Assembly: GCA_017399405.1 (NCBI GenBank)
Contig: JAFQCT010000012.1
Coordinates: 310,001 to 374,000, forward strand
DNA length: 64,000 nt
Direction of reading: 5' to 3'
From: Clostridia bacterium
GTDB taxonomy: Bacteria > Bacillota > Clostridia > Oscillospirales > Acutalibacteraceae
The notes beneath the pieces are model-generated. The model did no database searches, had not been told where the DNA came from, and worked only from the letters and a program-made list of their open reading frames with translations. This document shows positions 28,066 through 48,591 of this stretch, one piece after another; positions within the stretch are counted from its first letter, which is position 1; each line of letters begins with the position of its first letter. The translations under genes were made by a program, and so were the position numbers.

Positions 28066-28332
28066 ACAAATTGGAGTTTGTCTAACTGTTTTATGTGTTT
28101 GTTTTTTTGCTCCCTCTGACGAGGGCACGGGCATCCAGTGGATGCCGAATTAGTGCTGTCTGAGCCGGCAGGCGAGTAATGAGCTGTCGAGCGTTAGCGA
28201 GACTGAGGGAGAGATACGAGCCGTTAAGTACTTTATCTCTCCCTCCGTCATTTTCTTACGAAAATGCCACCTCCCTCGTCAGAGGGAGGAAAGAGGATGT
28301 CTTTCAAACACCCCGACAAACTCAATTTTGTT
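28066..28332 (+). repeat. composite palindromic element, copy A (~267 bp)
   Basis: The outer ends are the terminal repeat ACAAATTGGAGTTTGTC and an inverted form near 28315-28332. The inner core (28109-28289) begins and ends with a CTCTGACGAGGG-type inverted repeat. It contains hairpins GGCATCC-AGT-GGATGCC and CATTTTC-GTAA-GAAAATG. The core is almost the same as copy B at 29683-29860, in the opposite orientation. The rest of the 27868-28438 gap holds the rny promoter and a further hairpin (28360-28421). No gene is supported there. Confidence 0.8.
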
Positions 28333-37882: not shown

Positions 37883-38154
37883 ACAAATTGGGGTTTGTCG
37901 AAATCTTTGCATAGACACAACCTATTACCCTCCCTCGTTGAGGGAGGTGGCAAAATCGAAGATTTTGACGGAGGGAGTTTTGCGATTACATATATTACTC
38001 CCTCAGTCTGCTTCGCAGACAGCTCCCTCTGAGAGGGAGCGGACGGGCGATTCGTGAATCGCCCCTACTATAATCGCAACGCAGTTCCGATTTTATTCTT
38101 TATTCATTATTCATTATTCTTTATTCTTTAACATCCCGACAAACTCAACGTTGT
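37883..38154 (-). repeat. composite palindromic element, copy C (~272 bp)
   Basis: The ends ACAAATTGGGGTTTGTCG (37883) and GACAAACTCAACGTTG (to ~38154) match the terminal repeats of A and B. The core 37928-38040 begins CCCTCCCTCGTTGAGGGAGG. It has the inner hairpin CAAAATC-GAA-GATTTTG in place of CATTTTC-GTAA-GAAAATG, so both arms changed together. The centre is shorter than in A and B. It also carries a GGGCGATTC/GAATCGCCC hairpin followed by CCTAC (38045-38068) and a heptamer tandem repeat (38096-38130). The adjoining 37589-37880 is AT-rich with no supported gene. Confidence 0.75.
38096..38130 (+). repeat. tandem heptamer repeat TTC(A/T)TTA x5
   Basis: Five consecutive 7-base units: TTCTTTA, TTCATTA, TTCATTA, TTCTTTA, TTCTTTA. 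They lie inside the end of composite element C. Copy number may vary by slippage. Confidence 0.75.
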
Positions 38155-45230: not shown

Positions 45231-47102
45231 CTATTTTCTTTCGTTTTTACTTAAATGAATAAGCAATACTGAAATATCTGATGGTGAAACTCCGCTAATT
45301 CGTGATGCTTGACCAACACTTTCGGGACGGACTTTTTTAAGTTTTTCCCTTGCTTCAAGACGAAGTGAGTAAACATCGTCATAATCAATATCAGCAGGGA
45401 TTTTCTTAACTTCAAGTCTTCTCATTTCGTCAACCTTTGCTTGCTGACGCTTAATGTAGCCCTCATATTTCAAATCAATTTCAACTTGTTCAAAAATATC
45501 TTGTGGAAGTTCCGGTCGGGTTTTGTCGAATGGTGTAAGACATTCATAATCAAGTTGTGGTCGTTTAATAAGTTCAGCAAGGCGAATACCCGTTTTCATC
45601 GGGGCTGTTTCACGTGAAACAAGAACTTCGTTGATTTCAGGTGAGGGGGCAATAGTAACTGATTCTACCCTTTCACGCTCTTGTGCTATGAGTTCAAGTT
45701 TTTTCTTGAACTTGTTATATCTTTCTTCACTTATAAGTCCGATTTTATAACCGTACTCTGTAAGACGAATATCAGCATTATCCTGACGGAGTAAAAGTCT
45801 GTATTCGCTACGGGAAGTCATCATTCTGTATGGGTCAGAACAACCCTTTGTAACAAGGTCATCAATAAGTGTACCAATATATGAACTTGCACGGTCAAGA
45901 ATAAATGGCTCTTTGCCCTGAACTTTACGAACTGCGTTCACACCTGCAATAACTCCTTGTGCGGCAGCTTCTTCATAACCTGATGAACCATTGAACTGAC
46001 CTGCACCGAAAAGATTTTCTATATCATTAAATTCAAGAGATGCTTTAAGTGCCAATGGGTCAACGCAATCGTACTCAATAGCATAAGCAGTTCTCATAAC
46101 CTCAACATTCTCAAGACCTTTAATACTACGCAAGAATTTAAGTTGAACATCTTCGGGAAGAGATGATGACATACCTTGCAAATACAGCTCTTCTGTATCA
46201 AGTCCACAAGGCTCAATGAAAAGTTGATGTCTTTCTTTTTCTTCAAATCGTACAATCTTATCTTCAATACTTGGGCAATATCTTGGACCTACACCCTCAA
46301 TTTTACCTGAATAGAGAGGGGAACGGTGAATATTTTCAAGAATAATACGCTTTGTTTCCTCGTTTGTATATGTAATATGACATACTTCTTTATTCTCCGG
46401 CAAAATTTCAGTTTCATAAGAGAATGGAACAACTTGCTCATCACCCTCTTGAACTTCAAGTTGTGAAAAATCAACACTGCGTCTATTAACGCGTGATGGA
46501 GTACCTGTCTTAAATCGTCTTAAAGGAATATTCATTTTATAAAGTGCTTGCGAAAGACGGGTTGCAGGGAACATTCCGTCAGGGCCACTTTCAAAAGAAA
46601 CATCTCCAATATAAATACGACCACCAAGAAATGTACCCGTTGCTATTATTACTGCCTTTGCTGTGTAGATTGCCTCAAGATTTGTTTTAAGGTAGAAAAC
46701 ACCGTCCTTTTTATAAAGGTCAACGATTTCAGCCTGTTTCATATCGAGATTTTCTTGTTTTTCAAGAGTATGCTTCATATATTTTGCATAATCGCGGCGG
46801 TCAATCTGTGCACGCAAAGAATGTACTGCTGGGCCTTTACCACGATTAAGCATTCTTGTCTGTATGGAATTTTTGTCAGCAGCTTTTCCCATTTCACCGC
46901 CAAGTGCATCAATTTCGCGGACAAGGTGACCTTTTGAAGTTCCACCAATTGATGGGTTACAAGGAAGATTACCAACCCAGTCCATATTGATTGTAAAAAT
47001 AATAGTTGACGCACCAAGGCGTGCAGAAGCAAGTGCCGCTTCAATTCCCGCGTGACCGGCACCAATTACTGCTATATCATATTCTTTTGCAAAATATTCC
47101 AT
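45231..47102 (-). CDS. mnmG: tRNA uridine 5-carboxymethylaminomethyl modification enzyme MnmG (GidA)
   Basis: With MnmE it installs the cmnm5 group on wobble uridine 34 of several tRNAs. The FAD-binding GAGHAGIEAALASARLG lies at the N-terminus. PSIGGTSKGHLVREIDALGG, GLDTEELYLQGMS and the C-terminal helical domain (YIKRQQ, ISGVSPSDIS) follow. The start at 47102 has AAGGAA upstream; a longer frame to 47159 would read through a palindromic repeat. The protein is 623 residues. A perfect parS site lies inside the gene. Its partner mnmE is 15 kb away at 62322. Confidence 0.96.
   Translation of the reverse strand: MEYFAKEYDIAVIGAGHAGIEAALASARLGASTIIFTINMDWVGNLPCNPSIGGTSKGHLVREIDALGGEMGKAADKNSIQTRMLNRGKGPAVHSLRAQIDRRDYAKYMKHTLEKQENLDMKQAEIVDLYKKDGVFYLKTNLEAIYTAKAVIIATGTFLGGRIYIGDVSFESGPDGMFPATRLSQALYKMNIPLRRFKTGTPSRVNRRSVDFSQLEVQEGDEQVVPFSYETEILPENKEVCHITYTNEETKRIILENIHRSPLYSGKIEGVGPRYCPSIEDKIVRFEEKERHQLFIEPCGLDTEELYLQGMSSSLPEDVQLKFLRSIKGLENVEVMRTAYAIEYDCVDPLALKASLEFNDIENLFGAGQFNGSSGYEEAAAQGVIAGVNAVRKVQGKEPFILDRASSYIGTLIDDLVTKGCSDPYRMMTSRSEYRLLLRQDNADIRLTEYGYKIGLISEERYNKFKKKLELIAQERERVESVTIAPSPEINEVLVSRETAPMKTGIRLAELIKRPQLDYECLTPFDKTRPELPQDIFEQVEIDLKYEGYIKRQQAKVDEMRRLEVKKIPADIDYDDVYSLRLEAREKLKKVRPESVGQASRISGVSPSDISVLLIHLSKNERK
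45606..45621. promoter_or_regulatory. parS site 2, inside mnmG
   Basis: TGTTTCACGTGAAACA, a perfect 16-bp palindromic parS. It lies within the mnmG codons for LVSRETAP. Confidence 0.96.
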
Positions 47103-47130: not shown

Positions 47131-47179
47131 GCCTCCCTTGTCAAAGGGAGGGGGACCATCGAAGATGGTGGAGGGATTC
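47131..47179 (+). repeat. REP-like palindrome, left end of the DUF559 cassette
   Basis: 49 bases: an outer hairpin (CCTCCCTTGTCAAAGGGAGG type), then GGGACC-ATC-GAA-GAT-GGT, then GGAGGGATTC. It matches the copy at 47574-47622 in inverted orientation over its whole length apart from the inner hairpin and one loop base. It overlaps the stop codon of the DUF559 gene. Confidence 0.85.
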
Positions 47180-47540
47180 ATAATAAATTATTTTTAATAA
47201 AGTTATCTATATATTCACATACCCCATCAAAATTATACCATATTTCATTATTAGGGATACGAATTATTGTCAGATTCCTTTTTTCTAATTTTTCAGTTCT
47301 TATTTTATCTTTCAATACTATACCTTTTTCGTCATAGTGTTGTGAACCGTCTAATTCAATTATTAATTTTAATTTAGCACAATAAAAATCAACTATGTAA
47401 TTATCAATTACTTTTTGTCTTAAAAATCTTACTGGACAATCTCTTAAAAAATCATACCAAAGATGTTTTTCTTCTTTAGTCATATTTTTACGAAGATTTT
47501 TTGCATTTTCAGTTAAATTAGGATTATGCTTATAATTCAT
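47178..47540 (-). CDS. DUF559 (Vsr-like) endonuclease-domain protein
   Basis: The start at 47540 follows AAGAGG and gives 120 residues. The protein has the DUF559 pattern LRKNMTKEEKHLWYDFLRD, then FLRQKVIDNYIVDFYC, then LIIELDGSQHYDE, ending with IIRIPNNEIW. The Asp of VDFYC and the Glu of IELDG are the expected metal-binding residues of the PD-(D/E)XK/Vsr fold. Members are small presumed nucleases with no settled role. It lies between jag and mnmG, exactly bracketed by 49-bp inverted palindromes, which suggests a mobile unit that was inserted in the ribosomal/origin operon. Confidence 0.87.
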   Translation of the reverse strand: MNYKHNPNLTENAKNLRKNMTKEEKHLWYDFLRDCPVRFLRQKVIDNYIVDFYCAKLKLIIELDGSQHYDEKGIVLKDKIRTEKLEKRNLTIIRIPNNEIWYNFDGVCEYIDNFIKNNLL

Positions 47541-47573
47541 AGCAGACCTCTTAAATAAAAAAACAGTGGAGAA

Positions 47574-47622
47574 GAATCCCTCCACCGCCTATGGCGGTCC
47601 CCCTCCCTTTAACAAGGGAGGC
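47574..47622 (-). repeat. REP-like palindrome, right end of the DUF559 cassette
   Basis: Inverted copy of 47131-47179. The inner hairpin reads GACC-GCC-ATA-GGC-GGT here, against ATC-GAA-GAT on the left. Two base pairs changed on both arms together, so pairing is kept. Confidence 0.85.
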
Positions 47623-47637
47623 TTTCCGACCTATCAA

Positions 47638-48591
47638 TTATTCTTCAGTATTTACTGAACGGATTTCTACTTTACCGTAGAGGGAAGCTCCGTCAATATC
47701 GCTTTTTGGTGCTCTATCCGGAGAAATTTCTGGCTTATATGCTTCTTTTCTTTCGCGTCTGCCACCATTTCTGTTATTTCTGCCACGACCACCGTTATTT
47801 TTTGCACCTTCAACAGGTGAAATTACAACGCGTCTGTCAAGGTCTGAACCTACTGAATGAGATGTTGCACCCTCTACTTCTTGAACAGCAGTATGGATGA
47901 TTCTTCTCTCATAAGGATTCATTGGTTCAAGTGAAATATTTCTGCCTTGACGAACTGCTCTCATAGCAGTTTTTCTTGCAAGAATCTGAAGAGTTTCTTC
48001 ACGCTTTGCACGGTAGTTGCCAACATTTATAGCAACTCTCTTATAACTCTGGTTACCCTTGTTTGCCATCATTCGTGCAAGGTATTGAATAGCGTCAAGA
48101 GTTTCACCGCGTTTACCGATAATAATACCGTAATCATCACCGCAGTCAAGTTCAAAGTAAATCTCTTCTTCATTAGACATTTCTTTGATTTCACACTCGC
48201 TCATACCAAGACCTAAAACAATAGATTTGATATAATCTGCAGTTTCTTTATAAAGATTAGTTTCATTCAAAGGAAGTTCAGGTTCCTGCACTTTAGTTTC
48301 AACTTTTGGTGCTACCTTTTCTTCTTTTTTATTTTCAACCTTTTTTACAGGTTTTTTATCGTTTTTCTTATTATTTGGTTTATTCTGTTTCTTTTCAGGT
48401 TTTGGGTCTGCTACTTCTGTTGTAACTTTAACTTTTGCAGGATTACCACCGAAAAGACCGAGGATTTTCTTTGTAGGTGTCTGAATAACTTCTACATTGA
48501 AATCGTCAAAGTCGCTGATACCAAGTTCAAGCATAGCAGCGGCTTTTGCCTCGTCAACCGTATTACCGGTTCCGATTGCTTCTTTAATCAT
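47638..48591 (-). CDS. jag: RNA-binding protein Jag (KhpB/EloR type)
   Basis: A cytoplasmic RNA-binding protein linked to cell elongation and envelope control in other Bacillota. Jag_N covers residues ~1-55 (GTGNTVDEAKAAAMLELG, KKILGLFGG), followed by a Lys-rich linker. A KH-like domain contains IIIGKRGETLDAIQYLARMM, and an R3H domain contains MNPYERRIIH. A basic Asn/Gly/Arg tail follows. The 317 residues fit. It starts 10 bases after yidC. Confidence 0.93.
   Translation of the reverse strand: MIKEAIGTGNTVDEAKAAAMLELGISDFDDFNVEVIQTPTKKILGLFGGNPAKVKVTTEVADPKPEKKQNKPNNKKNDKKPVKKVENKKEEKVAPKVETKVQEPELPLNETNLYKETADYIKSIVLGLGMSECEIKEMSNEEEIYFELDCGDDYGIIIGKRGETLDAIQYLARMMANKGNQSYKRVAINVGNYRAKREETLQILARKTAMRAVRQGRNISLEPMNPYERRIIHTAVQEVEGATSHSVGSDLDRRVVISPVEGAKNNGGRGRNNRNGGRRERKEAYKPEISPDRAPKSDIDGASLYGKVEIRSVNTEE

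Follow-up and report, generated by a model that had tools for sequence, protein, structure and literature searches.

The 64,000-nucleotide stretch of DNA analysed here (the window; positions 310,001 to 374,000 of contig JAFQCT010000012.1) belongs to a Clostridia bacterium of the family Acutalibacteraceae. Between the genes jag and mnmG, it contains a gene for a small nuclease of the Pfam family DUF559, enclosed by two inverted palindromic units. We lean towards the reading that the gene and the two palindromes constitute one mobile cassette that resembles repetitive extragenic palindromic (REP) elements, in which the DUF559 nuclease, of the EDxHD/Vsr fold, replaces an HUH transposase as the driver. 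REP-like palindromes are common repeats of bacterial genomes; the enzymes described as mobilising them are, to our knowledge, HUH transposases. Comparisons of genome sequences document that DUF559 genes are associated with palindromes, that the same site can be occupied in one genome and vacant in another, and that one genome holds two nearly identical cassettes whose flanks differ. They also document palindromes that are specific to DUF559 clades, purifying selection acting on the nuclease, and hairpin loops that are one-sided.

Architecture of the cassette and its enzyme

In each unit of the window cassette (Table 1), an 8-bp outer hairpin is followed by a 6-bp inner hairpin and a 10-nt tail. 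An earlier description made from the letters of the window (the sequence-only reading) had the nuclease gene enclosed by inverted 49-base palindromes with compensated stem changes, and comparison of the two units confirms this. They differ at seven positions: one base of the outer loop, two bases of the inner loop (GAA in the left unit, ATA in the right) and four stem bases, which form two compensated pairs (ATC/GAT versus GCC/GGC). The changes of the inner loop lie within the inner hairpin, to which, apart from one loop base, the sequence-only reading had assigned the differences. DNA folding of each unit alone gave z-scores of -4.1 and -5.0 relative to shuffled sequences. The pattern CCTCCCTTN{3,8}AAGGGAGG was found at these two units only in the 1.96-Mb assembly, which is 97.5% complete. 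At its stop codon, the DUF559 gene overlaps with the edge of the left unit. The genome encodes three DUF559 genes; judged by eye, all of them (3/3) are flanked by units on both sides, and the palindrome sequence is different each time.

The DUF559 protein matches the EDxHD/Vsr fold and not HUH; the EDxHD catalytic motif and the fold are both present, and the residues E24, D51, E62, D64 and H68 are invariant across the aligned relatives. The Y1_Tnp profile (PF01797) had no matches in the same genome. These results agree with the earlier claim that the enclosed enzyme has a fold other than HUH.

Association of DUF559 genes with palindromic units in Clostridia

A DUF559 match was found in 29 of 60 genomes of relatives and in 71 of 293 genomes of the class, with many weak matches inside long open frames. 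Matches with an E-value weaker than 1e-30 in the first gene set or 1e-20 in the other two were left out, as were duplicated loci and four genes identical to earlier ones. A structural detector identified a unit within 200 nt of the DUF559 gene in 39 of 43, 38 of 42 and 61 of 73 cases in the three sets, and in 140 of 1695, 46 of 768 and 147 of 1430 control placements at the same loci, which were not matched for intergenic position. Because the units are intergenic, a gene-anchored control was added. A unit lay within about 200 nt of 132 of the 152 DUF559 genes and 32 of the 345 control genes, and units were present on both sides of 76 and 3 genes, respectively. A Fisher test was applied to this comparison, in which the flank windows of the two groups are close but not identical (domain ends versus open reading frame ends) and the loci are partly non-independent (some Clostridial pairs, and four Azospirillum loci that represent the same site). 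The 345 controls include a few genes in loci with unmasked cassettes (L050, L052, L235, L240, L245), the effect of which runs counter to the favoured reading. The flanking of DUF559 genes by such palindromes above chance, which the sequence-only reading had put forward for comparison, is thus borne out. A stricter detector rule, under which the tail had to contain the arm a third time, missed the GATGAGGTG type and left 12 of 43 genes without a unit; the counts given here and their controls come from the relaxed rule.

The nearest upstream units point the same way in 93 of 107 cases, and 51 of the 93 upstream units in + orientation in Clostridial cassettes carry a Shine–Dalgarno (SD)-like tail 3–14 nt ahead of a start codon. 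The left arm of Clostridial upstream units could pair with its partner arm or, alternatively, with the SD-like tail. One DUF559 subtype (L083, L085, L086, L088, L110, L116) has a larger common block of about 0.6–0.8 kb, which starts with CCTATAACTCGATTTTCTGT and includes a promoter-like stretch beyond the palindromes.

Movement of the cassettes

The gene jag was in reach at 17 of 30 jag–mnmG loci. Two of these are filled, 14 have the two genes adjacent with the site empty, and one contains 1.4 kb of other sequence; an empty site in relatives, for which the sequence-only reading had proposed to look, occurs in 14 of the 16 adjacent pairs. Between kdgK and the aldolase gene, 3 of 30 sites are filled, and seven of the 27 unfilled ones have 280–735 nt of other sequence between the genes. 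No unit was detected in the unfilled alleles of either locus (0/14 and 0/27), and therefore the palindromes came or went together with the gene. By eye, a GTAG-headed REP-like hairpin of the type associated with RAYT transposases is present at L051, L053 and L057 (jag–mnmG) and at L234 (kdgK–aldolase), where other genomes hold the cassette.

In the mnmG comparison, the filled genomes G000 and G017 are each nearer to an empty genome (G015 and G028) than to each other, and the synonymous divergence (dS) of DUF559 in the two carriers, 0.73, is near that of mnmG, 0.85. The window copy therefore resembles an old insertion that was lost in sister genomes, not a fresh jump. In the relative G023, mnmG lies between two copies of a cassette that are 99.4% identical; both have the ends GAATCCC...GGGATTC, and their flanks differ. 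BLAST alignments between cassettes of different genomes ended within 12 nt of both outer edges in 29 of the 83 pairs with both unit edges known. No target duplication was found in 58 cassettes, the mean longest direct repeat being 0.88, compared with 0.92 when the flanks were shuffled. The flank profile of 58 cassettes has G at position -1 (88 and 91%) and A at positions -2 to -4 (60–74%). In S. meliloti Ak57, the sequence that corresponds to the Sinorhizobium K101 cassette was considered as an empty site and rejected as a decayed copy.

Solo and inverted-doublet copies of the units are dispersed, with 27 places of one type in the genome of the window and six pairs 94–120 nt apart in G034. According to our reading of the 27 CTCCCT-type units, five are in DUF559 cassettes, two form the doublet of the window and seven are solo. 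On this comparative record, the cassettes have been mobile over evolutionary time.

Matching of palindromes to nuclease clades

A tree built from 119 columns of 79 DUF559 proteins, with good support for 22 of its 75 inner branches, contains clades that cut across host families. Among 78 genes, the similarity of arms and of tails tracks protein similarity (Spearman 0.435 and 0.405; 0 of 999 permutations), and that of inner hairpins hardly does so (Spearman 0.135; 12 of 999 permutations). For 46 genes whose protein is nearer to one from another genome than to one from their own, the palindrome agrees with the protein relationship in 35 cases, disagrees in 6 and ties in 5. Genomes with DUF559 hold more units than those without it (median 18 versus 2; within genus 18 versus 7, p 0.026), and b-type units (TTCCCC..GGGGAA) are more numerous in genomes with a b-clade gene (p 6e-5); both comparisons include linked copies and are uncorrected for phylogeny. 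The excess of units is a sign of cognate pairing that is partly independent of linkage.

Folded form of the units

Inner segments were gathered by anchoring on the outer arm and tail only, which provided 112 distinct sequences. Of these, 94 form a perfect stem of at least 4 bp with a loop of 3–5 nt, and the stem sequences vary widely. Three-base loops are GNA in 50 of 68 cases (47 closed by C-G) and TNC in none, with C-G closure in 65 of the 68, whereas hairpins away from units (stem of at least 6) have GNA or TNC loops, on either strand, in 29 of 215 cases. Four-base loops are GNNA in 15 of 24 cases and TNNC in none. The one-sidedness of the GNA loops indicates selection on one of the two strands, folded by itself; the selection on a folded form proposed in the sequence-only reading is thus supported for a single strand. 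GNA loops are described as exceptionally stable DNA minihairpins (Yoshizawa 1997, as cited in the available part of PMC6479982). In the general design of a unit, the outer hairpin is specific to the clade and its 5' arm is rich in C and T, the inner hairpin keeps its pairing and mostly carries a GNA cap, and the tail is purine-rich. No Rfam family reached its gathering score in six loci. A mir-663 match in the window (21.6 bits, threshold 75) was taken as chance.

Cassettes outside Clostridia

A tblastn search of plasmid records identified 33 records, some of them chromosome-sized, of which 22 were examined, with near-duplicates and some others left out. They comprise 13 loci from alpha-Proteobacteria, three each from Deinococcota and Cyanobacteria, and one each from Photobacterium, Neisseria and E. 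coli. The detector used here searched for palindromes with a C/T-rich 5' arm, and gave 140 of 149 when applied to the Clostridial sets. Such a palindrome was present beside DUF559 at 21 of the 22 loci (10 on both sides) and in 14 of 286 control placements. By eye, the units of Sphingomonas (L310) and Sphingobium (L307) match the window design, with a C/T-arm hairpin followed by GGGACC, an inner hairpin capped C-GAA-G, and GGTGGAG. Sphingomonas YK209 contains three DUF559 genes (L301, L306, L310), two of which are located within gene clusters (sufB–sufC and transhydrogenase).

In rhizobial replicons (L304, L321, L320), palindromes of the DUF559 type form inverted doublets whose ends resemble CCCCTCACCCTAA, and the L320 doublet, which lacks DUF559, occupies the position where a relative carries the gene. 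Phage carriage was considered in a scan of viral contigs, which identified 26 relatives, of which four are full-length with 50–59% identity, one is partial with 54%, and the others have at most 44%.

Relation to known elements

The layout of the cassette is close to that of the RAYT/REP/REPIN system, which is related to IS200/IS605 (Nunvar 2010, PMC2817692). Both have one enzyme gene between two inverted palindromes that are matched to the enzyme, compensatory stem changes, dispersed solo units and inverted doublets, and no target duplication. However, as far as the available part of that source describes the system, its enzyme is an HUH Y1 protein and not an EDxHD/Vsr-fold nuclease; DUF559 units contain two hairpins and a tail, and Clostridial ones are preceded by AAAAG instead of a GTAG/GTGG head. 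Since the HUH enzyme and the GTAG head are absent, the DUF559 cassette is not a member of RAYT/REP.

With the EDxHD homing endonucleases, as represented by I-Bth0305I in the part of PMC3943268 available, the DUF559 proteins share the fold, the invariant acidic and histidine residues, and a selfish-gene pattern of purifying selection and decayed copies; the available text of PMC9403480 assigns a DUF559 gene to the EDxHD homing family. Unlike these endonucleases, DUF559 cassettes were seen without intron or intein, their palindromes move with the gene, and they are located at many unrelated sites instead of one cognate site. CGTC-tagged REPs, which have a CGTC tag beside the stem and a CCA tail, are, according to the accessible part of one report (Di Nocera 2013, PMC3733652), a large class of dispersed palindromic repeats without an HUH partner and are said to lack a dedicated transposase; judged by eye, one Clostridial inner form reads CCGTC-hairpin-GCCACC on the bottom strand. 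The idea that DUF559 is the missing enzyme of CGTC-tagged REPs was dropped, as the CGTCATTC/CGTCATCC tag strings were present in 0 of the 22 loci outside the Clostridial sets.

The very-short-patch-repair endonuclease Vsr, which is marked by T:G mismatch nicking beside a dcm methylase, was compared in fold, which DUF559 matches; the cassette differs from it in being mobile and flanked by palindromes. DDE-type miniature inverted-repeat transposable elements (MITEs) have terminal inverted repeats and occur as short non-autonomous intergenic copies. DUF559 units likewise include short non-autonomous copies in intergenic DNA, but the cassettes lack target duplications and end in two-hairpin units. 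The collection of open-access papers searched yielded no description of DUF559 together with palindromes; subscription papers and preprints were outside this search, and an earlier description is possible.

Weighing of explanations

Several observations weigh against a mobile cassette driven by its nuclease. There was no detected unit at 20 of the 152 Clostridial DUF559 genes, the E. coli gene (L312) has no palindrome, that of Neisseria (L302) has a single hairpin on one side, and the four Azospirillum loci among the 22 count as one site. The right-hand window unit is capped by ATA and thus has no GNA loop. The jag–mnmG pattern looks like one that old insertion followed by loss fits as well as gain does, and no clean empty-site junction was obtained, the region at jag–mnmG being too divergent. 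Exact sharing to the palindrome edges is limited to the 29 of 83 cassette pairs, many of them from one subclade; 26 pairs are homologous past an edge (same site or larger common block) and 28 stop inside. The correlation between palindromes and DUF559 proteins would also be expected from mere linkage. Genomes without any DUF559 match may hold dozens of units (37 in G006, 47 in G033 and 27 in G036), which indicates that units survive and spread without a resident DUF559. Finally, by our reading 13 of the 27 CTCCCT-type units of the window's genome ride in a terminal-inverted-repeat MITE, so that other enzymes also spread units.

A rather unlikely alternative is that other enzymes spread the REP-like palindromes, and that these are the target of DUF559, a stand-alone homing endonuclease, which break repair between palindrome copies would spread and leave enclosed by two of them. 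Its closest solved relatives include I-Bth0305I, the homing-endonuclease profiles PADLOC HEase and phrog_9084 match 6 and 10 of 11 members, respectively, and units are plentiful in DUF559-free genomes. However, the unfilled alleles at jag–mnmG and kdgK–aldolase contain no detected unit, so that the palindromes came or went together with the gene, and the cassettes occupy many unrelated sites.

We consider it improbable that an unrelated transposase, for example that of the MITE in the window's genome, moves palindrome-ended DNA with DUF559 as cargo for defence or repair. The unit doublets carried by this MITE, the larger block common to several loci of one DUF559 subtype, and weak matches of DUF559 members to PADLOC restriction-enzyme profiles are consistent with a passenger gene. 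However, no inverted MITE ends resembling AATTGAGTTTGTC are seen at the window cassette, target duplications are lacking, and the palindrome type tracks the DUF559 clade across host families.

The palindromes are very unlikely to be only terminators or elements of DUF559 translation control, in which the tail serves as the ribosome-binding site, pairing is kept for that purpose and mobility is absent. The SD-like tails of the upstream units fit such a role, but the alternation of filled with empty sites, the duplicated copies and the dispersal of units, some of them away from DUF559, point to mobility; the GNA three-base loop is a DNA-stability motif, and the Rfam search of the six loci does not point to a known RNA. 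Chance or base composition, for which nothing speaks beyond the general abundance of hairpins, has a negligible probability given the five units that the structural detector found in the 64-kb window compared with 0, 0, 1, 0 and 0 in five Markov-shuffled windows, and given the association with DUF559 genes in and outside Clostridia.

Other units of the window

Besides the cassette, the window contains an inverted doublet without DUF559 and a unit inside a larger MITE (Table 1). The MITE, which has AATTGAGTTTGTC-like inverted ends (L279, L280, L281, L291; window ~28240–28290), holds an inverted doublet of DUF559-type units, and several contigs of the assembly start or stop within it.

Table 1 Cassette, neighbouring genes and further palindromic units in the window
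Feature	Position	Strand	Details
Whole cassette, 492 bp, jag–mnmG interval	47131..47622	-	This genome and one relative (G017); missing in 14 others with jag adjoining mnmG
Left palindromic unit, 49 nt	47131..47179	+	Outer hairpin 47132-47151; inner hairpin 47155-47169, loop C-GAA-G; tail GGAGGGATTC 47170-47179
Right palindromic unit, inverted, 49 nt	47574..47622	-	Outer hairpin 47602-47621; inner hairpin 47584-47598, loop C-ATA-G; tail 47574-47583
DUF559 endonuclease gene, 120 aa and stop	47178..47540	-	PF04480 match, E 8.4e-29
jag (KhpB/R3H), upstream neighbour	47638..48591	-	Same strand as cassette
mnmG (gidA), downstream neighbour	45231..47102	-	Same strand as cassette; start at 47102 common to relatives; listed open reading frame extends to 47159, across the palindrome
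Unit, CCTCCCTC..GAGGGAGG type	37929..37977	+	First half of inverted doublet without DUF559
Unit, GCTCCCTC..GAGGGAGC type	37998..38040	-	Second half of the same inverted doublet
Unit, CCTCCCTCTGACGAGGGAGG type	28239..28289	-	Inside larger MITE with terminal inverted repeats

Proposed mechanism and implications

The sequence-only reading had proposed a mobile homing-like or REP-type unit driven by DUF559. The empty sites and the palindrome-flanked homologues are the opposite of both outcomes that it had named as refuting, and uphold the mobile unit; that the nuclease itself cuts the palindromes or drives the movement, we infer. The nuclease is nevertheless the likely driver of the cassette, and the steps of cutting and copying may be as follows. 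The nuclease would bind the single-stranded hairpin form of its cognate unit, for instance on the lagging-strand template, and nick at or beside the unit. Repair would then place a copy of the cassette, or of two units without the gene, at a new site and leave no target duplication. In many cassettes, the upstream unit also has its tail in the place expected of a ribosome-binding site.

Tentatively, and with somewhat less than even confidence, we suggest that DUF559 represents a separate class of mobility enzymes: a stand-alone EDxHD nuclease acting on the single-stranded, C(GNA)G-capped hairpins at its own ends, within a cassette of about 0.5 kb. It would spread among Clostridia, alpha-Proteobacteria, Deinococcota and Cyanobacteria, and the many orphan C/T-arm palindromes of their genomes would stem from it. 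If so, several phyla would have a palindrome system whose nuclease is of an unrelated fold, and the uncharacterised family DUF559 would gain a function, as the mass of orphan palindromes would gain a source. The natural GNA caps would provide genomic evidence of a working single-stranded DNA form, and the small nuclease and its hairpin would be a pair whose specificity could be read from natural examples clade by clade. The results suggest that many unrelated bacteria harbour a type of mobile DNA that has attracted little notice and has a nuclease, not a known transposase, as its driver.
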